Shown here in pieces: positions 50,088 to 63,979 of a stretch of DNA of 64,000 nucleotides; position 1 is the first letter of the stretch, and each line of letters begins with the position of its first letter. Location: NCBI GenBank assembly GCA_009699245.1, contig WLOQ01000002.1, positions 186,001 to 250,000 of the forward strand, read 5' to 3'. This stretch comes from Actinomycetota bacterium. Lineage in GTDB: Bacteria > Actinomycetota > Thermoleophilia > Solirubrobacterales > Solirubrobacteraceae. Both the position numbers and the translations under genes were made by a program. The notes under the pieces are model-generated. The model did no database searches and was not told where the DNA came from. It worked only from the letters and a program-made list of their open reading frames with translations.

Positions 50088-51020
50088 CTACATCGTGGCA
50101 CGGTCAGGGGCATAGGCCCATGGCCACCGCGAGCACTCGTCCCACCCGGCGCGTCGGAGCTCGCGTGCGTAGTCCTCCGCGAGTTCCCCGGCAAGGCCGG
50201 CGTCGGCGGCACGCATGGCGCGCTCCGGCACATGGTGCGTGAGCTGCTCGGGCACCGCCGGATCGAAGCCGCTGAGGTGCAGGACCCGGCAGGGGACGTC
50301 CCCTGCGTGGAGCGACCCGTCGCGCAGCGACAACGGCCGCTGGGGGAGATTCCAGAACGCGACGTTGGTCCCGGGGTCGGCGAGCACCGCGACGCCCTCG
50401 AACATCCCGGGCGCGAGGTCGGCCCAGCGCTGATCGAGGAAGCGCCCGCCGGGAATGTCCACGTCGCAGTCCTCCGCGAGGCGGTCGCCCCACCAGCCCA
50501 GGAACGCGCGCGCGGGCGCTCCCTCGCGCACGGCGACCACGCCGGTGTTGAGCGCGCCGTTCACGCGCGTGTAATACCCCCACAGCGCCGCATCCGGCCC
50601 GGTGACCGGCTCGACATGGTGGGGCGTGAGCAGGACATCCGCCCGCCCGAGCCCGTCGATCAGCGTCGTCAGCGGGTTCGTGACGATGGTGTCCGTGTCG
50701 AGGTAGATCACGCGCTCGTGGCCGCGACGCAGGAGGTGCTCGATCGCCGCGGCCTTCATCGACATCGCAGCGGTCCCGGGGTTTGCGTGGCTGCGCGCCT
50801 GCTCGACGAGGTCGCGGTGCGCCACCTCGCGCAGGCGGATGACCTCGAACGGCTCCGCGGCAGGGTCGAAGCAGCCCTGCGGCTCATCGACGAGGAGGAG
50901 CGCCAGCTCCAGCTCCGGGTGATGGCGGCGCAGCGACTGCGCAAGGACGCGTGCGCCGGCGAGCCGCGCCTTGGTCGCGATCGCCGCGACGATCACGGGG
51001 TCGCGTACACCCATGGCCAT
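50088..51020 (-). CDS. GT8-like glycosyltransferase (LHLSGFDP group), stand-alone copy
   Basis: A 310-residue GT-A-fold transferase. It begins VIVAAIATKARLAGARVLAQSLRRHHPELELALLLVDEP, has the metal/sugar-nucleotide motif DTD (Asp108, Asp110 in IYLDTDTIV), a NTGVVAV segment, FLDQRWADLAP and the group's LHLSGFDP. It is the closest paralogue of the next gene and of two domains in the giant protein. Donor and acceptor are unknown. GGAGGAGA seven bases before the ATG sets the start, inside the end of the upstream gene (28-base overlap). Confidence 0.78.
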   Translation of the reverse strand: MAMGVRDPVIVAAIATKARLAGARVLAQSLRRHHPELELALLLVDEPQGCFDPAAEPFEVIRLREVAHRDLVEQARSHANPGTAAMSMKAAAIEHLLRRGHERVIYLDTDTIVTNPLTTLIDGLGRADVLLTPHHVEPVTGPDAALWGYYTRVNGALNTGVVAVREGAPARAFLGWWGDRLAEDCDVDIPGGRFLDQRWADLAPGMFEGVAVLADPGTNVAFWNLPQRPLSLRDGSLHAGDVPCRVLHLSGFDPAVPEQLTHHVPERAMRAADAGLAGELAEDYARELRRAGWDECSRWPWAYAPDRATM

Positions 51021-51898
51021 GTCGAGCTCTCCTCCCACCCCGCGTCGACCAGCGCCTCGCGGTACTGGGCCGTGATCTCCCCCAGCAGGCCGGCGACGTC
51101 GGTGGTCAGGTCGGGCATGTGGACCGAGACGAGGTGCGGACGGCCCGGGTCGTATCCGGAGAGGTGCAGCAGCCGGCACGGCACGCCCCCGGCGCGGAGC
51201 TCGCCATCGTGGCGGGTCAACGGACGCTCGGTGAGATTCCAGAAGGCGACGTTCGTCCCGGGGTCATCGAGGATCGCGACCCCCTCAAGGAGCCCCGGTG
51301 CCAGGTCGAGCCAGCGCTGGTCATGGAATACGCCCCGCGCAGGATCGGCGGTGCAGCAGACGGCGAGTCGATCCCCCCACCAGCCCAGGAAGGCGCGGCC
51401 GCGCGCGTCGCCGCGGACCCCGACGACCCCGCCGTTCATCACGCCCGCGACCTGCACGGCCTGCAGGACCGAGCGAGCGGCGAGGCCGCGGGGCGACGTG
51501 AGCAGATGCGGCGTGAGCACCACAGAACCGCCGTCGAGCGCCGCGATCAGCGGGTCGAGCCGCCCGGTGACGAGCATGTCCGTGTCGAGGTGGATCGCTG
51601 CCCAGCACCCACCGGCGAGGACATGCTCGAGCAGCGCGGCCTTCATCGAGTTGGCGCAGTCGCCCGCGGCCCGGTGGGCACCCACCTGGGCGAGGAGGTC
51701 GCGGTGCTCGACGTCTTCCAGGCGGATGACGTCGAACGGCTGATCTGCGGGGTCAAAGCGCCCGGCCGGCTCATCGACCAGCAGCACGCTGAGCGACAGC
51801 TCCGGGTGATGGCGCAGCAGCGACTGTGCGAGGACCCGCACGCGCGAGAGGTGCGAGGACGTCGAAACGGTCGTGATCGCGAGCGGCCGGTCAGACAT
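50993..51898 (-). CDS. GT8-like glycosyltransferase, second stand-alone copy
   Basis: A 301-residue paralogue of the neighbouring transferase: ITTVSTSSHLSRVRVLAQSLLRHHPELSLSVLLVDEP, DxD (Asp105, Asp107 in IHLDTDMLV), VMNGGVVGVRG, FHDQRWLDLAPG, TNVAFWNL and LHLSGYDP, in the same order. The ATG overlaps the stop of the giant gene by 8 bases and its end overlaps the next transferase, so all three are translated from one transcript. Conserved FWNL and DQRWxDLAP segments probably form the active site. Confidence 0.78.
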   Translation of the reverse strand: MSDRPLAITTVSTSSHLSRVRVLAQSLLRHHPELSLSVLLVDEPAGRFDPADQPFDVIRLEDVEHRDLLAQVGAHRAAGDCANSMKAALLEHVLAGGCWAAIHLDTDMLVTGRLDPLIAALDGGSVVLTPHLLTSPRGLAARSVLQAVQVAGVMNGGVVGVRGDARGRAFLGWWGDRLAVCCTADPARGVFHDQRWLDLAPGLLEGVAILDDPGTNVAFWNLTERPLTRHDGELRAGGVPCRLLHLSGYDPGRPHLVSVHMPDLTTDVAGLLGEITAQYREALVDAGWEESSTWPWVYATP

Positions 51899-54800
51899 CC
51901 CACGGCACCGCGTACTCGGTGCGCCCGGCGTGATCCACCCAATCGAGGAACGCCTCGTGATCCTCACCCAGATGCTGCGGGTAGAGCGCCTGGAGGTCCG
52001 GGCGCTCGCGCCAGATGACATCCCAGAATCGGCTGACGCCGTCGTCGCCGGCGGGCTGCGCCATCCAGGCGCGGAAGGTTCCCGGCCCCGTCGCGAACGG
52101 GTCGCCGAAGCGCGCCGCGTCGCGACCCAGCCTGCGGTGGAGGTCGCGGACGGCGTCCGTCACCGGCGCGCCATCGTCGAACGCGTCGTACGCGTAGGGC
52201 AGCAGGCACGCGTCGCGCGCGCCGGCATCGAGCAGCTCCTCGCGGTATAGGCGGTAGATGTCCGCCGCCGGGCCGAACGATGCGAGCGTGACGGCGGGCC
52301 GGTCGATGGTCGCGAGGTCGGGTCGCTCGGGGTCGTAGCCGCTGAAGTGCACGACCGTGGCCGACCGGCCGTCGACCTCGACGCGCCCGCCGGCGAGCCG
52401 CGGTGCCCGCTCAGCGAGGTTCCAGTGGCCGATGTTGACGCCACGGTCACGCAGGACATGCAGGCCGGGGACCACCGCGAGCGTGAGGTCGAGGTGCCGC
52501 TGTTCGTAGTAGAGGCCGCGGTGTGGATCGTCGACGCAGTCCGCGCGCACCTGCTCATCCCACCAGCGCAGCGCCTCCAGCGCCTCGGGGACATCGGCGA
52601 CGGCGACGACGCCCGCGTTGAAGACGCCGCGCACGGAGGCGAAGAGTTCACGCTCGAGCGCGTCGGGCCCGGTCGCCGGCTCGGCCATGTGCGGCGTGAG
52701 CACGAGCGGCGCGGCGACGAGCGGCGCGGTGATCGGGTCGAGCGGTCCGGCGACGAACGTCGCAGGGCGCAGCAGGACGACTGCGTCGACGTCGTCGCGC
52801 CGCAGAACATGCTCGATCGCCGCCGGCGTGAGGACGGCTGCCAGCGCGTCGCGGTCGTGCTCGAACGCGAGCTCGCGCATCCCCGGAATGGCGAGGTCGG
52901 CAGCGACGAGCAGCTCGATCGGCTCGCCGCTCACGTCCGGCAGGCCGTACGGCTCGTCGGTCAGGACCCAGACGCAGGGCGTCCCGGGGTTCGTGCGCGC
53001 GAGCGACCGAGCCAGCACGCGCACATGCGCGAGCTGCGCATTCGGCCCCACGGTCACCACCGTGACGCGCGGGCCGCCAGATGCGGGACGGGCGGGGGTG
53101 GACGGCTGCGGCTCGGCCACCGCGCCGCTGGGCACCGGCCGTGCGGCAAGCTCGGCGCGCAGCGCCTCGAGCTGGCGCTCCTGCTCGCGCAGGCGGCCGA
53201 GCGCCGTCGCGTGCAGGGCGCTCACGCGGGCGTTGACGCGGCGATCGAGCGCCCGCGCATCGTCGCTGAGCGCGCGATTGATCTCCTCCTGCCAGTACGT
53301 ATAAGGGCGGATCGCGCGCAGCACTATGCGCCGCAGTGCGGCGCCTGCCTTGCCACCGCGGGCGCGCACACGCGGCGCGGAGCCCGCTGCGATCAGCGCC
53401 CCCGCGCGCGCGGAGCTGGGGAGCGGCGCGCGTGCGCCGCCGGCGAGTCGGGGCGCGATCCGCCGCAGGCGCGCCTCGGCGGCGCGGCCTGTCACGAGCA
53501 GTGAGTGGCCGGCGCGCATGTCGGCGGCGGCGCGCACTCCGAGCGCGGCTGCCGCCTGCGGGTCGTCGAAGACCTGACGCATCAGCCGTGCAGCGTGCTC
53601 GACGTCGGGCTCGGCCCACTCGCCGTCGGCCGGATAGGGCCAGGCGCCCTCGCCGACCGGGATCATCGTGAAGTCGACGGCGAGGCTGTTCGCCGCCGTC
53701 ATGTAGTCCATGTTCCCGGAGTAGCCCGTGGCGATCACCGGCTTGCCGAGGTACATCGCCTCCGCGATCGTGAGCCCCAGGCCCTCGCAACGGTGGAGCG
53801 AGACGTAGCAGTCGCAGCTCGCCATCAGCCGATCACGGTCGGGCGCATCGAGGTAGCCGCCGAGGATCACGATGTCGGTGCGACCACCGATGGCGTCGAG
53901 GACCTCCGCATGCTGGTCGGGCTGCTTGTCCGCGTTGATGCTCTTGAGGACGAGCACGGGCCCCTCACCCTCGGCGAACGCCGTGGTGAAGGCACGGACC
54001 GCGGCGACGGGGTTCTTGCGCCGGACGGTGCTGTTGTAGTCGTACGCGTAGAGGAACGTGAAGTCGGCCGGCCAGCCGAGCTCGCCGACGGCGAGCGGGT
54101 GGGTCGGGGCCACCGCGATCGGCATCGGAATGTGCACGACCGGCACGGGCGCGGCGGCGGCCAGCGTCTGCGCGACGAAGCTCGTCCCCGCCCAGATCTC
54201 GTCGACGTACCCGAAGGCCTCGTCGTACTCGGCGGGAAACGCGTTCGTCTCCCACCACCAGAGGCCGATGTTGTGGCGCCCCTCGAAGAACTGCTCGCCG
54301 ACCTCGCGCGCCAACCGCGGGACGCCGTCGGCGTTCACGCAGATGAGGTTCACCGGGAGTGGCGGCCGCTCGGCGTCGAGCCCGGCGAAGGGGTGCCCGG
54401 CCCGGCTCGCGGGCGCGTTCAGCTCGATCGGCGCGGCGGGCACGCCGGCCGCATCGAGCGCGGCGACCATCTGGCGCGCGATCTCACCGATCCCGAGCTC
54501 CGCCCGCAGGTACCCCGCGACGTTGACGCCTGGGACGCCGTCCCGCACCGTGTCGACCGGCGGAAGCTGCGCCCCCGCGCTGCGCAGCGCGAGCGCCTCG
54601 GCGGGGATGAGCGCCTCCGGGATCGCCAGCTCTGAGCTGCCGTGGTCGGCGACCCAGCGCAGGAAGCCACGCGCATCGCGCTCGTCGCCGAGATCGGGAA
54701 AGGCGTGGCGCATGTCGCTGCGCTCGGCCCATGCGCGCTGCAGGAGGCGCGTGACGCGCGGCGCCTGCGGGTCGCGCTCGTTGAGCCACGCGACGAACTC

Positions 54801-55799
54801 CGCTTCGCCGGCCGGCGTGAAGATGGACGCCGGAAGCATGCCTTCGGAGCGGCCGTCGCGGTAGGCCTCGCGCAGCAGCGGCGTGAGCGCCATCCCGGAC
54901 GGGAGCACGTCGTTGCCGTAGGGGATCGCGCACGCCGCGTCCCAGCCCTCCTCCAGCAGCGCTGCGCGGTATCCGTCGCAGAGCTCGCGCAGGACCGGCT
55001 CGTCGCTGAGCCGCACGCGATCCTGGTGGCGGCTGAGTTCGAAGGGCCGCGCCGGGTCGTAGCCGCTGAGGTGCAGGAACCGCAGCGGGTGCCCGTCGAC
55101 GGCGTAGCGGCCGTCGGTCACGGTGAGCTCCCGGCCCAGGATGTTCCAGTACGCGAGGTTGCAGGCGGGATCGCGCAGCACAGCGAGGTCCGGGAGGAAC
55201 GACGGGGCGAGGTCCATCCAACGCTGGTCGACAAAGATCCCCTCGGCCGGGGCGTTGCGGCAGTCGGTGAGGAGCCGCTCCGCCCACCAGTCGAGGAGGC
55301 GGTCGGCATCCGCCCCCGCCTTGAGCGCGACGAAGCCGAGGTTGAAGAACCCCGCGACGAGGATGTCCGCCTCGCTCGGGCGCCGGCCGTCGCGCGGGAG
55401 CGGCCCGGCCAGGTGCGGGGTCAGCACCACCGGGTGGTCGCGCAGCGCCTCCTCGACAGGCCCCAGCGGCGCGAAGATGCGGATGTCGGGATCGAGGTAG
55501 GCGAGGCCGGCGGCACAGCCGCGCTCCTCGAGCAGGTGCCGCAGGAGCCAGGGCTTAAGCGACGTCGCGAACTCGAGCACGTCGTAGGCCGCGCGCATCT
55601 CGTCGTACGCGTCAAGGCGCAGGTCGGCGGGGGCGACGAGCTCGAATGGCTCGGCCTGCGCGTCCACCGAGCCGTCATCGTCGATGACGAGGACGAAGCA
55701 CCGTGCGCCGGGGTGATGCTCAGCGTGCGAGCGTGCCAGCACGCGGGCCTGCGGGAGGTAGTTGCGCGCGACGATCGTGCAGATGTCCAACTCGGGCAC
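51891..55799 (-). CDS. Giant three-catalytic-domain glycosyltransferase (GT8-like, GT4, GT8-like)
   Basis: A 1302-residue protein with no signal or membrane helix. Residues 1-300: GT8-like domain with DPD (Asp103, Asp105) and LHLSGYDP. About 325-400: helical module with WxxR...FPDL...FLRWVADHG. About 425-775: GT4 domain with the E-x7-E signature (Glu672, Glu680 in EGLGLTIAE). About 830-890: coiled coil. About 910-1200: second GT8-like domain whose DxD site reads RPA (1011-1013). About 1235-1302: a second helical module ending FLDWVDHAG. The frame opens 1250 bases further upstream over the ABC gene, but only the GTG at 55799 (VPELDICTIV) aligns with the paralogues. Confidence 0.82.
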   Translation of the reverse strand: MPELDICTIVARNYLPQARVLARSHAEHHPGARCFVLVIDDDGSVDAQAEPFELVAPADLRLDAYDEMRAAYDVLEFATSLKPWLLRHLLEERGCAAGLAYLDPDIRIFAPLGPVEEALRDHPVVLTPHLAGPLPRDGRRPSEADILVAGFFNLGFVALKAGADADRLLDWWAERLLTDCRNAPAEGIFVDQRWMDLAPSFLPDLAVLRDPACNLAYWNILGRELTVTDGRYAVDGHPLRFLHLSGYDPARPFELSRHQDRVRLSDEPVLRELCDGYRAALLEEGWDAACAIPYGNDVLPSGMALTPLLREAYRDGRSEGMLPASIFTPAGEAEFVAWLNERDPQAPRVTRLLQRAWAERSDMRHAFPDLGDERDARGFLRWVADHGSSELAIPEALIPAEALALRSAGAQLPPVDTVRDGVPGVNVAGYLRAELGIGEIARQMVAALDAAGVPAAPIELNAPASRAGHPFAGLDAERPPLPVNLICVNADGVPRLAREVGEQFFEGRHNIGLWWWETNAFPAEYDEAFGYVDEIWAGTSFVAQTLAAAAPVPVVHIPMPIAVAPTHPLAVGELGWPADFTFLYAYDYNSTVRRKNPVAAVRAFTTAFAEGEGPVLVLKSINADKQPDQHAEVLDAIGGRTDIVILGGYLDAPDRDRLMASCDCYVSLHRCEGLGLTIAEAMYLGKPVIATGYSGNMDYMTAANSLAVDFTMIPVGEGAWPYPADGEWAEPDVEHAARLMRQVFDDPQAAAALGVRAAADMRAGHSLLVTGRAAEARLRRIAPRLAGGARAPLPSSARAGALIAAGSAPRVRARGGKAGAALRRIVLRAIRPYTYWQEEINRALSDDARALDRRVNARVSALHATALGRLREQERQLEALRAELAARPVPSGAVAEPQPSTPARPASGGPRVTVVTVGPNAQLAHVRVLARSLARTNPGTPCVWVLTDEPYGLPDVSGEPIELLVAADLAIPGMRELAFEHDRDALAAVLTPAAIEHVLRRDDVDAVVLLRPATFVAGPLDPITAPLVAAPLVLTPHMAEPATGPDALERELFASVRGVFNAGVVAVADVPEALEALRWWDEQVRADCVDDPHRGLYYEQRHLDLTLAVVPGLHVLRDRGVNIGHWNLAERAPRLAGGRVEVDGRSATVVHFSGYDPERPDLATIDRPAVTLASFGPAADIYRLYREELLDAGARDACLLPYAYDAFDDGAPVTDAVRDLHRRLGRDAARFGDPFATGPGTFRAWMAQPAGDDGVSRFWDVIWRERPDLQALYPQHLGEDHEAFLDWVDHAGRTEYAVPWDV

Positions 55800-55847: not shown

Positions 55848-57125
55848 ATGGCAGACGCCTCCGGCGCAGCCTCCGCCGTGGTCGCTGCGGAGGTCTCGAA
55901 GACCTTCCGTGTCCCGCAGGAGCAAGTCCACACGCTCAAGGAGCGCGTCCTGCACCCGCTGCGCTCGTCGGCGCACCATGAGTTCCGCGCGCTGCGCGAC
56001 GTGTCGCTCACCGTGCCCAAGGGCGAGTTCTTCGGCATCGTCGGGCGCAACGGCTCCGGCAAGTCGACCCTCCTGAAGTGCCTCGCCGGGATCTACGGCA
56101 CCGACCGCGGCGCGATCTGGGTCGACGGTCGCGTCTCGACGTTCATCGAGCTCGGAGTCGGGTTCAACCCCGACCTCGCCGCGCGCGACAACATCGCGCT
56201 CAACGCCGCGATGCTCGGCCTCTCGCGCCGTGAGGCCCACCGCCGCTTCGACTCGATCATCGACTTCGCCGAGCTGCGCGACTTCACCGAGCTCAAGCTC
56301 AAGAACTACTCGTCGGGCATGATGGTCCGGCTCGCGTTCGCCGTGATGATCCAGGTGGACGCCGACATCCTGCTGATCGACGAGGTGCTCGCCGTCGGCG
56401 ACGCCGCCTTCCAGCAGAAGTGCTTCGACGAGTTCGAGGCGATCAAGGCCGCCGGGCGCACCGTGCTGCTCGTCACCCACGACATGGGCGCGGTCAAGCG
56501 GTTCTGCGAGCGCGCGATGCTGCTCGAGCACGGGGTGGTCGTCGCGACCGGCGACCCGGAGACGGTCGGCAATCGCTACCTCGATCTGAACTTCTCCTCC
56601 GAGGCGCGCGCCGAGGCCGCCGCGAACGAGCACGCCGCGAGCGCCCCGGCCCAGGCCATGGACGCGGTGCTCGGCGACGGACGCGCCGTGATCGAGGACG
56701 CGTGGCTTGAGAACGGCAAGGGCGAGCGCGCGACGATGCTGCGCAACGGCGAGCGCGCGTCGTTCGCGATGCGCGTGCGGCTCACCGCCGACCTGCGCGA
56801 ACCGCGCTTCACGGTCCAGCTCCACAGCGGGACGCGCGTCCCGCTCTTCACCGCGTCGAGCGGCTGGGGTGCCGCCGAGCCGGTCGGCACGCTGCGCGTG
56901 GGCGACGAGGTCGTCTGGCGCGCGGACTTCGACAACGTCCTCGGGCCGGACCGCTACTCGGTGACGCCGTCGGTGACGCTCGCAAACGGCACGGTCGTCG
57001 CCATGCGCGATCGCATGTTCAGCGTCGTCGTCACCCGGACGCAGGAGCACGGTGGCGCGCTCGTCGACATTCCCTTCCAGGCGCGACTCGAGCGCAACCC
57101 CGCCCCCGAAGAGGCCGCACGATGA
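55848..57125 (+). CDS. Polysaccharide ABC exporter ATP-binding protein, Wzt type
   Basis: A 425-residue ATPase. Walker A GRNGSGKST (66-74), signature YSSGMMVRLAFA (154-165) and Walker B ILLIDEVLAVGD (174-185) are clear, with the Wzt/TagH-like FIELGVGFNPDLAARDNI. About 270-425 is a beta-rich domain like the Wzt carbohydrate-binding domain, which recognises the capped glycan before export. The ATG is 6 bases after TACGCT (55836-55841). It overlaps the permease gene by 4 bases and starts 48 bases from the divergent giant transferase, so glycan synthesis and export face each other across one control region. Confidence 0.88.
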   Translation: MADASGAASAVVAAEVSKTFRVPQEQVHTLKERVLHPLRSSAHHEFRALRDVSLTVPKGEFFGIVGRNGSGKSTLLKCLAGIYGTDRGAIWVDGRVSTFIELGVGFNPDLAARDNIALNAAMLGLSRREAHRRFDSIIDFAELRDFTELKLKNYSSGMMVRLAFAVMIQVDADILLIDEVLAVGDAAFQQKCFDEFEAIKAAGRTVLLVTHDMGAVKRFCERAMLLEHGVVVATGDPETVGNRYLDLNFSSEARAEAAANEHAASAPAQAMDAVLGDGRAVIEDAWLENGKGERATMLRNGERASFAMRVRLTADLREPRFTVQLHSGTRVPLFTASSGWGAAEPVGTLRVGDEVVWRADFDNVLGPDRYSVTPSVTLANGTVVAMRDRMFSVVVTRTQEHGGALVDIPFQARLERNPAPEEAAR

Positions 57126-57994
57126 GCTCCGCGAGGGTGCCCGAGGCGGCCAAGGGCATGGGCCGGCCGATCAGCGGCCCGACGGCGCTCGGCAGTGACC
57201 CGCGGCGGTTCGTGCTGCTCGTGTGGACGATGGCCACGACCGACTTCAAGCTGCGGTTCTTCGGCTCGGTGCTCGGCTACCTGTGGCAGATCATGCGGCC
57301 GCTGCTGCTCTTCGGGATCATCTACACGGTCTTCACCGTCGTCCTCGACGTGAGCAGCGACGAGCCGGACTTCGGGGTCGCACTGCTGCTCGGCATCGTC
57401 CTCTTCCAGTTCTTCACCGACGCCACGGCCGGGTCGGTGCGGTCGATCGTGCTGCGCGAGGGTCTCGTGCGGAAGGTCGACTTTCCGCGCGCTGCGGTTC
57501 CCATGGCGTGCGTGCTGCAGGCGCTCTTCAACCTCGGGCTCAACCTCATCCCGGTGCTCGTCTTCCTCTTCGCGAGCGGCGGGACGCCGCACTGGACCTG
57601 GCTCGAGCTGCCGCTCATCCTCGGCGTCCTGATCGTCTTCGTGACGGGGCTCGCGCTGCTGCTCTCGTCGCTCTTCGTGCGCTACCGCGATGTCGAGCCG
57701 ATCTGGGATGTGGCGATGCAGGCGCTCTTCTACGGGACGCCGATCCTCTACTCGCTCTCGCTCGTGATCGACAAGGCCGGCCTCTCGGTCGCGCGCATCC
57801 TGCTGATCAGCCCGCTCGCCTCCGCGATCCAGCAGGGCCGCCATGCGCTCGTCAGTCCGCAGTACGGCTCGGTCGGGTCGATCTTCTCCACGCAGGCCGG
57901 CGTGGTCATCCCGCTCGTCGTGACCGCCGTGGTCTTCATCCTCGGCGCCTTCGTCTTCACGCGCGCCGCGCCGCGCATCGCCGAAGAGCTCTAG
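57122..57994 (+). CDS. Polysaccharide ABC exporter permease, Wzm type
   Basis: A 290-residue ABC-2 type permease with about six transmembrane helices. Characteristic stretches are TTDFKLRFFGSVLGYLWQIMRPLLLFGIIYTVFT, EGLVRKVDFPRAAVPMACVLQALFNLGLNLI and VRYRDVEPIWDVAMQALFYGTPILYSLS. It would form the channel for undecaprenyl-linked polysaccharide with the Wzt-like protein, from which it starts by a 4-base overlap. The 3' end faces rfbC with 7 bases between them. Confidence 0.88.
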   Translation: MSSARVPEAAKGMGRPISGPTALGSDPRRFVLLVWTMATTDFKLRFFGSVLGYLWQIMRPLLLFGIIYTVFTVVLDVSSDEPDFGVALLLGIVLFQFFTDATAGSVRSIVLREGLVRKVDFPRAAVPMACVLQALFNLGLNLIPVLVFLFASGGTPHWTWLELPLILGVLIVFVTGLALLLSSLFVRYRDVEPIWDVAMQALFYGTPILYSLSLVIDKAGLSVARILLISPLASAIQQGRHALVSPQYGSVGSIFSTQAGVVIPLVVTAVVFILGAFVFTRAAPRIAEEL

Positions 57995-58618: not shown

Positions 58619-60733
58619 GTGCGCACCTCCGTCGTCATCCCCGTCAAGGACGGGTCGCGCTGGCTCGCCGAGGTGCTCGACGCCGTCACGCGCGAGCAGC
58701 CCGACGAGCTGCTCGTGATCGACTCCGGCTCGCAGGACGACTCGGTCGCCCTCGCGCGCGCCGCCGGCGCCGAGGTCCTGAGCATTGCGCCGGGCGAGTT
58801 CGGCCACGGCCGTACACGCAATCTCGGGGTCGAGCGCACGAGCGGCGAGTTCGTCGTCTTCATCACCCAGGACGCGACGCCCGTCCCCGGGTGGCTCGCC
58901 GCGTACCTCGAGGCCTTCGGTCTCGACGAACGCATCGGCGCGGCCTTCGGGCCGCACCTGCCGCGCACGGGGACGAGTCCGATGATCGCCCGCGAGCTGC
59001 AGGAGTTCTTCGGGCGGTTCAGCCCCGACGGGCAGCCGTCGATCGTGCGCAGCCTCGACGATGAGAGCTGGCAGCCCGGCTTCCTCTCCAACGCCAATGC
59101 CGCGTATCGGCGCAGTGTCCTCGAGCGCATCCGCTTTCGCGATGTCGCCTACGCCGAGGACCAGGCGTTCGCGCGCGACCTGCTCGCCGCGGGCGGCTGG
59201 AAGGCCTACCACCCCGGCGCCGCGGTGCTGCACGCGCACGACTACCCGTGGGCGGACTTCATGCGCCGCTACTTCGACGAGTACCGCGGGCTCCACGACA
59301 CCACCGGCTACGTCGAGCGGATCGGCGTGCGGTCCACGGCGCGCTACCTCCACACCGAGGTGGCGCGGGACCGCGCATGGATGGCCGCGCAGGGGCTCGG
59401 GCCCGCCGCCAGGGCGCGCTGGACGGCGCGCTCCATCGCCCACCATGGCGGGCGGCGCATCTTCAGCGCGCTCGGGTCCCACGGCGACCGCCTGCCGAGC
59501 CCGGTGCAGCGCGCGCTCTCGCACGAGCGCCGAGGTGCGAGCGCGGGCACGCGCGACGGCGGCCTGCCGGAGCTGCGCACGATCCTGCCGCGACTCGCAC
59601 GCCCGACGCACGCCGATGTGCTCGACGTCGAGCGTCACGGCGTCGTTCCGCTCGCGCCGGCAGGCGCGGCTCCGACCGCGGACGCGTCCCTGCACGTGGC
59701 CGTCGTCGTGCCATCCTTCCGCCGCGGGAGCGGCGGCCACGACACGATCTTCCGGATCTTCCGCGAGATCGAGCAGCACGGACACGCGGTGTCGATCTGG
59801 GTCGACGATCAGGAGGGCCTGCTGAAGGGGCTCAGCGCCATGGAGGTCCGCGACCGCATCCGCGAGTGGTTCGCCCCCATCAACGCGCCGGTCCATCTGG
59901 GGTTCGACGACTGGGAGGGCGCCGACGTCGCGCTCGCGACCGGCTGGCAGACCGTCTTCCCCGTCCTGCGCCTTGATCGCTGCGGCAGCCGCGCGTACTT
60001 CGTCCAGGACCACGAGCCGGAGTTCGACGGCACCGGCGCGCCGTCGCGCTGGGCGCAGCAGACCTACTCCTACGGGCTGCATGCGATCTGCGCGAGCCCG
60101 TGGCTCGCCGACATCGTGCGCGGGCGCTACGGCGGGACGGCGTCGGTCTTCACGCTCGGCGCGGACCCGTCGATCTACCACGCGCGCCGCGTTGCGCGGC
60201 GGCGCGACACCATCGCGTTCTACGGCCGCGACGCGACCCCGCGGCGCGCTGTGCCGCTCGGGATGCTCGCGCTCGCCGAGCTCCATCGCCGTCGCCCGGA
60301 GCTGCGGCTCGTGAGCTTCGGCGATGCGCGCGTCGCCTCCACCTCCATCCCCTACGAGCACGCCGGCGTCGCCTCCCAGGAGGAGCTCGCCGCGCTCTAC
60401 TGCGAGGCGACGGTCGGCCTCTGCCTCTCGATGACGAACTACTCGCGCGTGCCGAACGAGATGCTCGCCTGCGGCCTGCCGTGCGTCGACCTCGCGGGGT
60501 ACAGCTCCGAGTCCGTCTACGGCGCCGACGGCCCGATCGAGCTCAGCGCCTTCAGCCCGATCGCGCTCGCCGACCACCTCGAGCGGCTGATCGACGACGA
60601 GGACCTCTGGGCGCGCCGCTCGCAGGCAGGCATCGACTTCGTGCGCGAGCACACCTGGGAGGCCGCGGCCCGCCAGGTCGACGACGGGCTGCGCGAGGCG
60701 CTGGCGCTGCGCGCCGGCGACGCTCAGGCGTAG
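58619..60733 (+). CDS. Two-domain glycosyltransferase (GT2 plus WsaF-like GT4)
   Basis: A 704-residue protein. The N-terminal GT2 domain (about 1-230) has SVVIPVKDGSRWLAEVLDAV, VIDSGSQDDSVALA and ITQDATPVPGWL in place of the classical DxD. The C-terminal domain (about 350-700) starts VVVPSFRRGSGGHDTIFRIFREIEQHGH and has YFVQDHEPEF and VPNEMLACGLPCVDL, matching rhamnosyltransferase WsaF-type GT4 enzymes. Fusion suggests two sequential sugar additions. The GTG start is 7 bases after TACGCT (58606-58611). It overlaps the convergent DUF2142 gene by 10 bases. Confidence 0.82.
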   Translation: MRTSVVIPVKDGSRWLAEVLDAVTREQPDELLVIDSGSQDDSVALARAAGAEVLSIAPGEFGHGRTRNLGVERTSGEFVVFITQDATPVPGWLAAYLEAFGLDERIGAAFGPHLPRTGTSPMIARELQEFFGRFSPDGQPSIVRSLDDESWQPGFLSNANAAYRRSVLERIRFRDVAYAEDQAFARDLLAAGGWKAYHPGAAVLHAHDYPWADFMRRYFDEYRGLHDTTGYVERIGVRSTARYLHTEVARDRAWMAAQGLGPAARARWTARSIAHHGGRRIFSALGSHGDRLPSPVQRALSHERRGASAGTRDGGLPELRTILPRLARPTHADVLDVERHGVVPLAPAGAAPTADASLHVAVVVPSFRRGSGGHDTIFRIFREIEQHGHAVSIWVDDQEGLLKGLSAMEVRDRIREWFAPINAPVHLGFDDWEGADVALATGWQTVFPVLRLDRCGSRAYFVQDHEPEFDGTGAPSRWAQQTYSYGLHAICASPWLADIVRGRYGGTASVFTLGADPSIYHARRVARRRDTIAFYGRDATPRRAVPLGMLALAELHRRRPELRLVSFGDARVASTSIPYEHAGVASQEELAALYCEATVGLCLSMTNYSRVPNEMLACGLPCVDLAGYSSESVYGADGPIELSAFSPIALADHLERLIDDEDLWARRSQAGIDFVREHTWEAAARQVDDGLREALALRAGDAQA

Positions 60734-62193
60734 TAGCGGCCGATCGTCAGGACCGCCGCGAAGATCGTGTGCGCGACGGCGAGTCCGACGATCGCCACGG
60801 CGACCTCACGGCCCCAGCGCCCGGCGCCGCGCACCGCGAGCGCAACGACCGCGCCGTAGAGCGCGAGCAGCGGGAAGAGGTAACGCAACTGCTCGAAGGC
60901 GAACCCGGTCTGCAGGCGGTACTCGTAGGCCGGCTTCGCGATCACAACGGTGAGCCCGAGGACCATCACGGCGTAGACGAGGAGCTCCGCCCGCCTGCGC
61001 GAGAGCGCGGCGCGGCCGACGACGACGGCCCGTCCGACGAGTGCCACGAGCACCAGCCAGACACCGATCGCCGCGCCGGTCACCCAGCTGGGGAAGCGGT
61101 AGTCGAGCCAGCCGAAGTTCCCGACCCAGGACTTGAACCAGATGTTGTACGCGGCGACCCTGCCGGGGATGAGGTCGTCGACGAACCACGGCCGCGGCAG
61201 GTAGGACTGCAGCCAGTAGGCGATCCGGCCGGACATCGTCGGTCCGTGTCCCGCGGCCACGCCGCCGCCGGCGCGGGCCGCTACGCCCGGGTCGTTGAGC
61301 CCGTGGTCCCACACGGTCGCGCCGAGGCCGACATAGACGAGCAGCGGGACCACCGCCGGCCCAGCTGCCGCTGCCGCGAGACGCAGCCGCTCACCGCGCG
61401 GCAGCCGCGCGATCAGGATCAGGAGCCCGAGCACCGCGCCCGGGACGATGCCGACGAACGTCAGCTTTGAGACGAGTCCGCCGCCGATCGCCGCACCGAT
61501 GCCGAGCGCCAGCCGCAGGCTGAGCCCGCGCCGGAACGCCCGTGCGAGGCCGAAGAAGAGCGCCGCCGCAGCGGCCGACATGAGGTTGTCCGCCGAGACA
61601 CCGCCGCCGAGGAACCCGACCATCGGCTGGAAGGCGACCGCGAGCGCACCGGTCGCGGCAGCCACTCGGCGCCCAGGAAGCAGCTCGGCGATGAAGAGGA
61701 AGATGAAGAACACCGCGAGCCCCGCCAGCAGGGCGGACAGGGCGCGAACGGCCTGGAGCCGATCGAGGACGTCACCGCCTGCGGCGTCGGCGGCGAGGTA
61801 CGGCACGGCGCCGAGCAGGTAATAGGCGGGAGGCTGTGGGCTCACCCCGGTGCGGCCACCGCCGTCGGATGCGGACCGGTGCTCCCCGACCGTCTGGCGC
61901 AGGAGGTGCGCCTCGAGCCCGGACCACGGCCCACGGCCCGTGGCGTTCCCGATCGTGCGACTGAACCCGAGCGCGCTCATCGCCGCACTCAGCTCGCTGG
62001 AGAGCGGCTGTTCGTCGAGCGAGCCGGCCGGCGTCGCGGTCGTCGCCAGCTCCTGGACGTAGGCGAAGTGCAGCGGCTCGTCGGGGACCTGCAGCGGCGG
62101 GATGATGACGCTCCACGCCAGCGCGACGAGGATCCCAACGAGCCCACAGGCGAGGGCGGTGCGCCCAGTGGCGGTCGTCCAGAGGCGCCTCAC
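60724..62193 (-). CDS. DUF2142-family polytopic membrane protein
   Basis: A 489-residue membrane protein with about ten to twelve helices. The extracytoplasmic loop after helix 1 has the family pattern PLQVPDEPLHFAYVQELA, then GVSPQPPAYYLLGAVPYL. DUF2142 proteins resemble GT-C enzymes that use polyprenyl-phosphate sugars, with the acidic DEP pair as candidate catalytic site; the reaction is not established. The GTG start overlaps the upstream stop by 4 bases (GTGA), so it belongs to the operon 63979-60724. Confidence 0.78.
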   Translation of the reverse strand: MRRLWTTATGRTALACGLVGILVALAWSVIIPPLQVPDEPLHFAYVQELATTATPAGSLDEQPLSSELSAAMSALGFSRTIGNATGRGPWSGLEAHLLRQTVGEHRSASDGGGRTGVSPQPPAYYLLGAVPYLAADAAGGDVLDRLQAVRALSALLAGLAVFFIFLFIAELLPGRRVAAATGALAVAFQPMVGFLGGGVSADNLMSAAAAALFFGLARAFRRGLSLRLALGIGAAIGGGLVSKLTFVGIVPGAVLGLLILIARLPRGERLRLAAAAAGPAVVPLLVYVGLGATVWDHGLNDPGVAARAGGGVAAGHGPTMSGRIAYWLQSYLPRPWFVDDLIPGRVAAYNIWFKSWVGNFGWLDYRFPSWVTGAAIGVWLVLVALVGRAVVVGRAALSRRRAELLVYAVMVLGLTVVIAKPAYEYRLQTGFAFEQLRYLFPLLALYGAVVALAVRGAGRWGREVAVAIVGLAVAHTIFAAVLTIGRYYA

Positions 62194-62807
62194 TCGCGCA
62201 CCCCCCGCGCGACCCAGACGAGCGCGCCGACGCCGGCGCCCACGAGCAGCACGAAGGCGAGCACGAGCCAGGCGGACCCCGCACCCCGGCCGGCTCCTGC
62301 GCGCTGCGCGACCTTCGGGACCAACGCCGCTCCCGATTGCTCGCCGGCCCGGTACCACGTGAACGACGGCGTGCCGGGGAGCTTCGGGTTGGCGCTCGGC
62401 GCGCCTGCAACGGCGACCTTGGCGGCTCCCTCGTTGGCGATGCAGACGCGCACGGTCGCAACGTCGCGCCGCAGCGGCGGCTCAAGGACGAAGTCCGTGA
62501 TGCCGGTTCGATGGTCGGTCGCGGGGGCGCTGGCGACCACCCGGCCGGCAGCCGTGAGCTCGGCTGAGAGTCGCGCCGCCGGCGCGCCGTACGTCCCGAT
62601 CAGGGCGCGCATCCGCGCGGTACCTCCGGGGACCGCCGCAACCGTCATGCAGGTCGTGCCACCGGGCTCCACGTCGCCGATGAAGGCCGCCGGCGCGACC
62701 GTCCCGGACCCCGCGAGGCGCGGCTCACGCTGGGCGAGGATCAGGACGAGTCCGGCGACGATGCCGGCGAGCACCACGGCGAGCACCGCCGCGACACTGC
62801 GCTTCAC
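62190..62807 (-). CDS. Membrane protein with extracytoplasmic beta-domain, hypothetical
   Basis: A 205-residue protein with a transmembrane helix near the N-terminus (about 6-27), a beta-rich extracytoplasmic region with three Cys residues, including the CMTV and RVCIANEG segments, and a second helix near the end (about 178-198). I do not recognise the family. It is linked by 4-base GTGA overlaps to the GT2 gene upstream and the DUF2142 gene downstream, which suggests a partner of the membrane glycosyltransferases. Confidence 0.68.
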   Translation of the reverse strand: MKRSVAAVLAVVLAGIVAGLVLILAQREPRLAGSGTVAPAAFIGDVEPGGTTCMTVAAVPGGTARMRALIGTYGAPAARLSAELTAAGRVVASAPATDHRTGITDFVLEPPLRRDVATVRVCIANEGAAKVAVAGAPSANPKLPGTPSFTWYRAGEQSGAALVPKVAQRAGAGRGAGSAWLVLAFVLLVGAGVGALVWVARGVRE

Positions 62808-63979
62808 CGCTCGCGCCGCAGGCCGATGATGCTCAGGAGGAACGAGGAGAAGAAGACCTGGATCCCGCAGATGAGGAAGACGGCGGCGAGGATCGCCAGG
62901 CGCTCCTCGCCGAGCTCTCCGAAGCCGCGCGAGATCCACTGCACGACGATCACGATGGCGAGCGCGAGCCCCGCGGCCAGCGTGATGCCGCCGAGCATCA
63001 GGCCGTGTTCAAGCCGGAACCGCGCGCGCATACGGTCGAACCACGGGTCCTGCTCGCGCATGAAGTACATGCCATACGCGTGCGCGCACAGGCCGAGCGA
63101 CACGACTTGGACGCCGATGATCACGAGCAGCGCGCCGGCGATCTCCGCGTGGATGTCCCACGCGCGTCCGAAGATGTCGACCTGCGCCAGCGCGATCGCC
63201 ATGACGAGCGCGCCGAGCAGGGTCATCACGAGGCCCGGGATGAGGAAGAGGTGGTTCGGGCTGTGGACGAGGAGGAAGCGCAGATGACGCCAGCCATCGC
63301 TCCAGGTCGAGAGCTTCGACTCGCCGCCGCGCGGGTGGTAGTCGATCGGGAACTGTTCGATCACGAGGCCGCGCTTGGCCGCGCGAATCACCATCTCCGA
63401 AGCGAACTCCATCCCGGGGGTCTGCAGGTCGAGGACCTCGAGCTTGTCGCGGCGCAGGGCGCGCATGCCGCAGTGAGCGTCGCGCACGCCGGTCTTGTAG
63501 AGCGCGTTGAGGAAGCCGGAGAGGATCGGGTTGCCGACGTAGCGGTGCAGCCATGGCATCGCGCCGGGCTGGATGTTGTCCATCCGGTCGCCCATGACGA
63601 GGTCGGCCCCGCCCTCGAGATGCTCGACGAAGCGCGGGATCTCACTGAAGTCGTACGTGAGATCCGCGTCGCCCATGACGATGTAGCGGCCCTTCGCCGC
63701 CGCGAAGCCGGCGAGGTAGGCGCTGCCGTAGCCGCGGCGCGGCTCGCGCACCACGCGTGCGCCGGCGGCGGTCGCCAGTTCGGCGCTGCGGTCCTCGGAG
63801 GCATTGTCGGCGACGACGACCTCACCGTTGATGCCGGCGGCCGCCATGGCCTCGAGCGCCGAGGCGACGCACGCCTCGATGTTCTCCTCCTCGTTGAGGC
63901 AGGGGATCACCACGCTCACGAGAATCTCGCCGGTCGGAGGCTCGGTCGCGGCCGGGCTGATCTGCTCTTGCACGCTCAT
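62804..63979 (-). CDS. GT2 polyprenol-phosphate sugar synthase-like membrane protein
   Basis: A 391-residue protein. The cytosolic GT2 domain (about 18-240) has VSVVIPCLNEEENIEACV, VVADNASEDRSAELA, the metal site DAD (Asp104, Asp106 in VMGDADLTYDF) and GMRALRRDKLEVLDL, as in dolichol-phosphate mannose synthases. The last 140 residues have four hydrophobic helices. It probably makes polyprenyl-phosphate-linked sugar donors for the DUF2142 protein encoded downstream. The ATG at 63979 is 21 bases from the window edge; what lies upstream cannot be seen. Confidence 0.85.
   Translation of the reverse strand: MSVQEQISPAATEPPTGEILVSVVIPCLNEEENIEACVASALEAMAAAGINGEVVVADNASEDRSAELATAAGARVVREPRRGYGSAYLAGFAAAKGRYIVMGDADLTYDFSEIPRFVEHLEGGADLVMGDRMDNIQPGAMPWLHRYVGNPILSGFLNALYKTGVRDAHCGMRALRRDKLEVLDLQTPGMEFASEMVIRAAKRGLVIEQFPIDYHPRGGESKLSTWSDGWRHLRFLLVHSPNHLFLIPGLVMTLLGALVMAIALAQVDIFGRAWDIHAEIAGALLVIIGVQVVSLGLCAHAYGMYFMREQDPWFDRMRARFRLEHGLMLGGITLAAGLALAIVIVVQWISRGFGELGEERLAILAAVFLICGIQVFFSSFLLSIIGLRRER

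Follow-up and report, generated by a model that had tools for sequence, protein, structure and literature searches.

In O-polysaccharide systems that depend on ABC transporters, the terminator is located at the end of a coiled coil distant from the polymerase modules (PMC11231755). It can share one chain with the polymerase and, in WbbB of Klebsiella pneumoniae O12, the terminator is itself a glycosyltransferase; the terminal group or cap is read by the carbohydrate-binding module of Wzt (PMC11231755). Metal dependence through a DxD motif is treated as near-universal among glycosyltransferases of the GT-A fold, and the named exceptions, which provide precedents for a metal-free GT-A, are GT14 (PMC7185993) and the bacterial GT6 enzymes with an NXN motif (PMC3961637). 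The gene described here was found in an actinobacterial window of 64,000 nucleotides (the whole stretch of DNA that was analyzed). Its giant product is tentatively viewed as a one-chain polymerase and terminator of a glycan exported by Wzm/Wzt, in which the terminator slot would be occupied by a metal-free GT-A.

Domain organization and genetic context of the giant gene

The gene is an open frame that runs on the minus strand from a GTG at position 55799 to a stop at 51891 and encodes 1302 amino acids (P0001); the source genome assembly comprises 1.95 Mb and is 99.4% complete. Its features and those of the neighboring genes are as follows.

51891..55799, minus strand: whole gene, in the order GT-A, helical domain, GT4, helix, coiled coil, GT-A, helical domain (open reading frame and alignment)
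54900..55799, minus strand: N-terminal GT-A domain, residues 1-300 (AlphaFold2 model and structure matches)
55485..55493, minus strand: D103-P-D105, metal site of the N copy (alignment; aligned with DAD of E. coli WaaO)
54585..54899, minus strand: helical domain after the N-terminal GT-A, residues 301-405 (alignment and AlphaFold2 model)
53430..54554, minus strand: GT4 domain, residues 416-790 (PF00534 above cut-off; conserved family-wide)
53760..53786, minus strand: GT4 signature E672-x7-E680 (sequence)
53292..53348, minus strand: conserved helix RRxxLRxxxPxTxxQ, at about residues 818-836, possible membrane anchor (kept in the tails of relatives)
53115..53291, minus strand: short coiled coil, at about residues 837-895 (heptad count; same place in relatives)
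52185..53087, minus strand: C-terminal DxD-less GT-A, residues 905-1205 (AlphaFold2 model and structure matches)
52761..52769, minus strand: R1011-P-A1013 instead of DxD (alignment)
51894..52184, minus strand: helical domain of the C module, residues 1206-1302 (alignment and AlphaFold2 model)
50993..51898, minus strand: P0002, intact single GT-A (DTD), 8-nt overlap with the giant gene; candidate partner
50088..51020, minus strand: P0003, intact single GT-A (DTD), overlapping P0002 by about 22-28 nt; candidate partner
55857..57125, plus strand: Wzt, ABC ATPase with C-terminal carbohydrate-binding Wzt_C (PF00005, PF14524)
57122..57994, plus strand: Wzm, ABC-2 permease (PF01061)
58619..60733, plus strand: GT2 fused to a WsaF_C-type glycosyltransferase, of the S-layer glycan rhamnosyltransferase family (PF00535, PF22772)

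The initial annotation described a 1302-residue protein with two copies of a module placed around an active GT4 domain and a coiled coil, and this architecture was borne out. The alignment of residues 2-394 with residues 910-1299 spans 397 columns, of which 33% are identical (E 9e-56, well beyond what chance would give), and the helical tails of the two modules are homologous as well. The middle domain matches PF00534 (Glycos_transf_1) with 39 bits against a cut-off of 26.4 and, with its E-x7-E signature, is active-looking; a match to PF20706 (GT4-conflict) was dropped as weaker than that to the general GT4 model. The helix that follows has a hydrophobic moment of 0.5-0.59, placing it in approximately the top 2% of 18-residue windows, and it is a possible membrane anchor. 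By a simple heptad count, the coiled coil has 75% hydrophobic a/d positions over 28-residue windows and a heptad-like stretch of some 50-60 residues.

Wzt, with its Wzt_C domain, and Wzm are encoded divergently beside the giant gene, and Wzm/Wzt also occur near the fusion gene in three other genomes (G015, G016, G138). Because the gene divergently adjoins this exporter, the earlier suggestion of a single-chain assembly platform appears plausible in the sense of a multi-module assembly chain. The same glycan region also contains genes for a DUF2142 membrane protein (60724-62358, minus strand) and a GT2 (62804-63979, minus strand).

Fold, origin and metal site of the C-terminal module

Both modules are predicted to be GT-A folds of the GT8/GT24 type. 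AlphaFold2, run separately for each module from alignments of the window and locus proteins only, gave models with a pLDDT of 95 and pTM of 0.93 for the C module and 96 and 0.94, respectively, for the N module. With Foldseek and VIA-align, the best matches of both were glycogenin, LgtC, and UGGT, and also GlyE and WbbM (Z 15-17.6, 192-250 residues aligned, rmsd 3-5), the top VIA Z values being 17.3 for the N module and 17.6 for the C module; comparison of the N and C folds with each other rests on the sequence alignment and on the PDB matches in common. A profile search of the PDB found LgtC and glycogenin over the first 120 or so residues (LgtC at E 0.005, from a mixed alignment), and a single-protein search of the PDB gave no match for the GT-A modules. 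Profile comparison with WaaO/WaaJ of E. coli K-12 aligned DxD with DAD, FNxG with FNSG, and DQRW with DQDV. The label of GT8-like given initially is correct for these folds, but the Pfam GT8 cut-off is missed: PF01501 does not match P0001 or P0002, reaches 15.3 bits with P0003 against a cut-off of 24.3, and finds nothing above the cut-off in the source genome.

A tree built from 66 GT-A domains places the N copy among the N-type GT-A/GT4 fusions (100/100 with L001). P0002, P0003, and the tandem GT-As of related genomes form another clade with the C copy, of 12 rows (100/98). The nearest neighbors of the C copy in this tree, which retained the active-site columns and held fewer rows of the KQES group described below, are the DxD-less first copies of the tandem GT-As (99/96). 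A second tree, enlarged by further rows and made without the active-site columns, retains an 18-member clade (98/99) with its inner order unresolved, and a constraint that keeps the C copy with the KQES rows was not rejected (p-AU 0.147). A recent duplication of the N module within the chain, followed by loss of the metal site, would explain why 33% identity extends over the full module including its helical tail, but a constraint that unites the two copies lowers the log-likelihood by 51.7 units (p-AU 0.004) and the C copy resides in the other clade with 98/99 and 100/98 support, which makes such a history very improbable. Hence, the initial term "duplicated module" holds as homology but is wrong as history because the C copy is no sister of the N copy; the phylogeny indicates that the C module is a separate GT-A lineage devoid of a metal site and not a spoiled copy of the N module.

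At the same alignment column, the N copy reads L-D103-P-D105 and the C copy L-R1011-P-A1013, and the C copy retains the FSGYDP and GHWNL landmarks, as the initial annotation had observed; among the four GT8-like domains compared, DPD is found in the N copy, DTD in both P0002 and P0003, and R-P-A in the C copy. This R-P-A reading rests on one assembly, the corresponding sequence of L001 (G015) ending at a contig edge before the metal site. A shifted acidic pair that might replace the DxD of the C copy was sought and none was found at the aligned site; the Asp of GPLDP near the site is also present in the KQES relatives and the intact partners. With the C domain modeled as a GT-A and no other acidic pair at that site, the reading of a GT-A that has lost its DxD was sustained. 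In full, the site of the C copy is R-P-A-T, with the C-terminal His kept. The Trp of DQRW is also gone (now EQRH) and the Lys of LKP is replaced by Thr, a change that may remove a donor contact. The Gln of DQ, the Asn of FNxG, and GHWN are all kept, and the Asp of DQ is replaced by Glu. Its initial description as apparently inactive is one possible reading. The retained catalytic Gln, Asn, and GHWN and the basic residue at the position of the first Asp, which the KQES group described below shows as well, would agree with simple inactivation no better than with binding or transfer that needs no metal.

Relatives without a metal site and the proposed role of the end module

GT-As with a comparable loss were identified in seven genomes (G012, G004, G020, G052, G176, G265, G275), which belong to three families within the class, and are defined here as the KQES group; one more member, in G008, is partial. 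In each of the seven, the Lys of LKP is replaced by Thr, D-x-D-x by K-Q-E-S, the Asp of DQRW by Glu, AYWN by GHWN, and the C-terminal His by Arg. Apart from a single degenerate clade that is unrelated, the other GT-As whose site could be read, 73 in number, all keep DxD. Within the class sample of 399 genomes, members were found in these genomes only, and the motif was present in none of the phylum-sample loci examined outside the class. The C copy of the window has in common with the group Thr86, Glu145, Arg146, Glu195, His221, and Thr260 (positions in the alignment, counted on the domain row of the N copy), each of which is found in 0-8% of other GT-As, whereas it carries R-P-A-T where 7/7 of the others have K-Q-E-S. 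When it is counted with the seven, all eight have a basic residue at the position of the first Asp (Arg in the window, Lys elsewhere) and all eight retain the DQ Gln and the FNxG Asn; the C-terminal His has become Arg in 7/8, the window copy keeping its His.

In 9/9 genomes the DxD-less module is accompanied by an intact GT-A, either fused or adjacent on the same strand. The two are fused, with the DxD-less module as the first half, in G012, G004, G008, G020, and G052; in G176, G265, and G275 the gene that comes next in the same orientation encodes the intact GT-A, as do the next genes in the window. The GT-A/GT4 fusion gene follows directly in G265 and G275, and is convergent in G176, so the window shows, in fused form, a set of modules that recurs. 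The KQES gene of G176 and its partner pair with each other in the tree without active-site columns (99/97), for which reason gene conversion or a repeated origin may be considered. Two KQES/DxD tandems, L084:7341-9755 (G052) and L081:8692-10536 (G012), are situated among housekeeping genes away from exporters, so the KQES/DxD pair has a function of its own and capping cannot be what the group as a whole does. Separately, five GT-A/GT4 fusions (L045, L076, L078, L079, and L080, from G030, G154, G121, G151, and G090) have an N-terminal GT-A without a metal site; the forms in this set are DPR, PPD, PST, APD, and GPA, most also lack DQ and the C-terminal His, and they compose a long-branch clade of their own that is unrelated to KQES.

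The KQES group is under purifying selection. The dN/dS values, which are rough because synonymous sites are partly saturated, were approximately 0.11-0.18 for the tandem KQES copies and 0.15-0.24 for their intact partners, with the DxD-less copy being the more constrained in three of four tandem pairs; between the window and L001 they were 0.31 for the C part (91 codons) and 0.35 for the N GT-A. It is possible, if doubtful, that the KQES GT-As are GT8-like transferases, the window module being their fused outlier, and that fixed basic residues at the first Asp and, in 7/8, at the C-terminal His have taken over from Mn/Mg. Metal-free catalysis would then have arisen independently once more in the GT-A fold, in an obligate pair with a metal-dependent sister.

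The position of the C module within the chain was informed by other relatives of the giant protein. Approximately 15 of them have GT-A/GT4, the RRxxLRxxxPxTxxQ helix, and a coiled coil followed by a methyltransferase-like module, of three kinds; the methyltransferases were confirmed with Pfam for L002, L006, and L008, and the other assignments were made by eye from motifs. In L087 and L194, the chain stops after the coiled coil with no end module. Among the fetched relatives, a GT-A is the end module in the window and L001 only, and the survey for the exact architecture, which had been suggested initially, found no second complete copy; it returned only L001 of G015, cut at the contig end. Elsewhere in the source genome, matches to methyltransferases are only weak. 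The C module occupies the slot in which some 15 relatives carry a methyltransferase-like module, in known systems the place of the chain terminator, and this analogy sharpens the earlier proposal of an acceptor-binding or scaffold domain. Other end modules include that of L139:5274-6185 (G334), which resembles the methyltransferases of the relatives but has no glycine-rich SAM motif; this protein, which is also L009, gave no Pfam match and may have another inactive module in the terminator slot. Those of L182 and L185 (G125, G022), with FSQNGEDGV and FIEFG or FVEFG, appear FkbM-like by eye.

In the mechanism proposed, the metal-dependent N-terminal GT-A and the GT4 domain would build the chain, and the conserved helix and short coiled coil would separate these chain-building domains from the C module, which fills the slot of the methyltransferase-like modules and would probably act as the chain terminator. 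The metal ion would have given way to a basic side chain, that of Arg1011 in the window and of Lys in the other members. With this replacement, the C module is most likely still able to bind either a nucleotide sugar or the end of the chain in a metal-free manner and to add the cap, perhaps together with the co-encoded intact GT-As P0002 and P0003, with which it might form a complex. Loss of the metal ligands in combination with a basic residue and the retained Gln and Asn favors such metal-free ligand binding, and perhaps transfer. The analysis establishes the order of the domains, their folds and lineage, the missing DxD, the signature residues, the equivalence of slot, and the operon and exporter neighbors; the polymerase and terminator roles, membrane anchoring, metal-free ligand binding, catalysis, and a complex with P0002/P0003 are inferred from these. 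Against the proposal, the window copy has R-P-A and not K-Q-E, the Trp of DQRW and the Lys of LKP are lost, a ruler would call for a longer coiled coil, and capping is not the function of all KQES proteins.

The constant company of an intact sister would equally fit a true pseudo-glycosyltransferase, in which the C module transfers no sugar and assists P0002/P0003 and the catalytic domains of its own chain as partner, chaperone, or scaffold that binds the acceptor, in the manner that COSMC serves T-synthase (PMC7185993). Such a role would suit the absence of both Asp residues and of the LKP Lys, an R-P-A that differs from the KQE of the relatives, the unfailing presence of an intact GT-A, in the same chain or encoded next to it in the same orientation, across all nine genomes, and purifying selection without a metal site. 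However, the Gln of DQ, Asn of FNxG, and GHWN remain, whereas COSMC lost both DxD and xED, and all seven relatives carry one fixed alternative (K-Q-E-S, with the C-terminal His replaced by Arg) with no drift; we regard this explanation as doubtful, but only a little less probable than metal-free capping. It is unlikely that the module is instead a third active GT-A, working without metal and outside termination and responsible for one of the sugars in the repeat unit, the slot analogy being accidental. The KQES/DxD tandems away from exporters do imply a group function independent of termination, and the fusion of G265/G275 keeps a C-terminal tail with a SAM-binding-like motif while its KQES gene is separate, but the module of the window and L001 joins the chain directly behind the helix and coiled coil, at the place of the end module of relatives, with no fused methyltransferase left, and only weak methyltransferase matches exist elsewhere in the source genome. 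Decay of the C module after fusion, as a relaxed leftover without specific function, would be in keeping with its long branch and its further loss of KQE and the DQRW Trp relative to its kin; it is rendered quite improbable by the full-length frame, the confident fold model, the overlap coupling to the next gene, and a dN/dS of approximately 0.31 over the part comparable with L001, similar to that of the N GT-A.

Comparison with known systems

With respect to fold, the N copy resembles members of GT8/GT24 (LgtC, glycogenin, and the catalytic domain of UGGT), having the same DxD, FNxG, DQ, and C-terminal His, but similarity here is below the Pfam cut-off and the C copy has no DxD. In WbbM (6u4b), a bifunctional O-antigen glycosyltransferase, residues 279-575 form a GT-A to which the N copy corresponds over 239 residues (VIA Z 15.5, rmsd 4.2); WbbM comprises two modules with another partner domain and is not known to have a coiled coil or terminator slot.

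For the metal site, the closest parallels are GT6a of Bacteroides ovatus (NXN) and GT14 (C2GnT-L), where DxD was lost in a conserved clade and the polypeptide or basic residues replace the metal. The KQES and window modules belong to other families and their metal independence is putative. COSMC and T-synthase, a GT31 pseudoenzyme and its active partner, provide the other precedent of a DxD-less GT-A kept with an intact relative; COSMC also lost xED, whereas here the Gln of DQ is kept, its Asp has become Glu, and the modules are fused or adjacent. The literature search found no inactive GT-A domain/partner pair. With all three metal ligands changed, to K, E, and R, and an intact sister at hand, the KQES group would offer a clean test between metal-free catalysis and a pseudoenzyme partnership that has arisen again.

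With respect to the chain as a whole, WbbB of K. pneumoniae O12 and WbdD/WbdA of E. coli O9a likewise unite glycosyltransferase modules with a helix, a coiled coil, and an end module, be it in a single chain or in a complex, and here, too, Wzm/Wzt with a Wzt_C domain lie beside the gene. The predicted assembly enzyme of this window differs from them in having as its end module a DxD-less GT8-type GT-A at the C-terminus, behind a short coiled coil and in an actinobacterium. The apparent exchange of methyltransferase-like modules for a GT-A behind the same coiled coil would make it an actinobacterial counterpart of the terminator logic of O-antigen synthesis.
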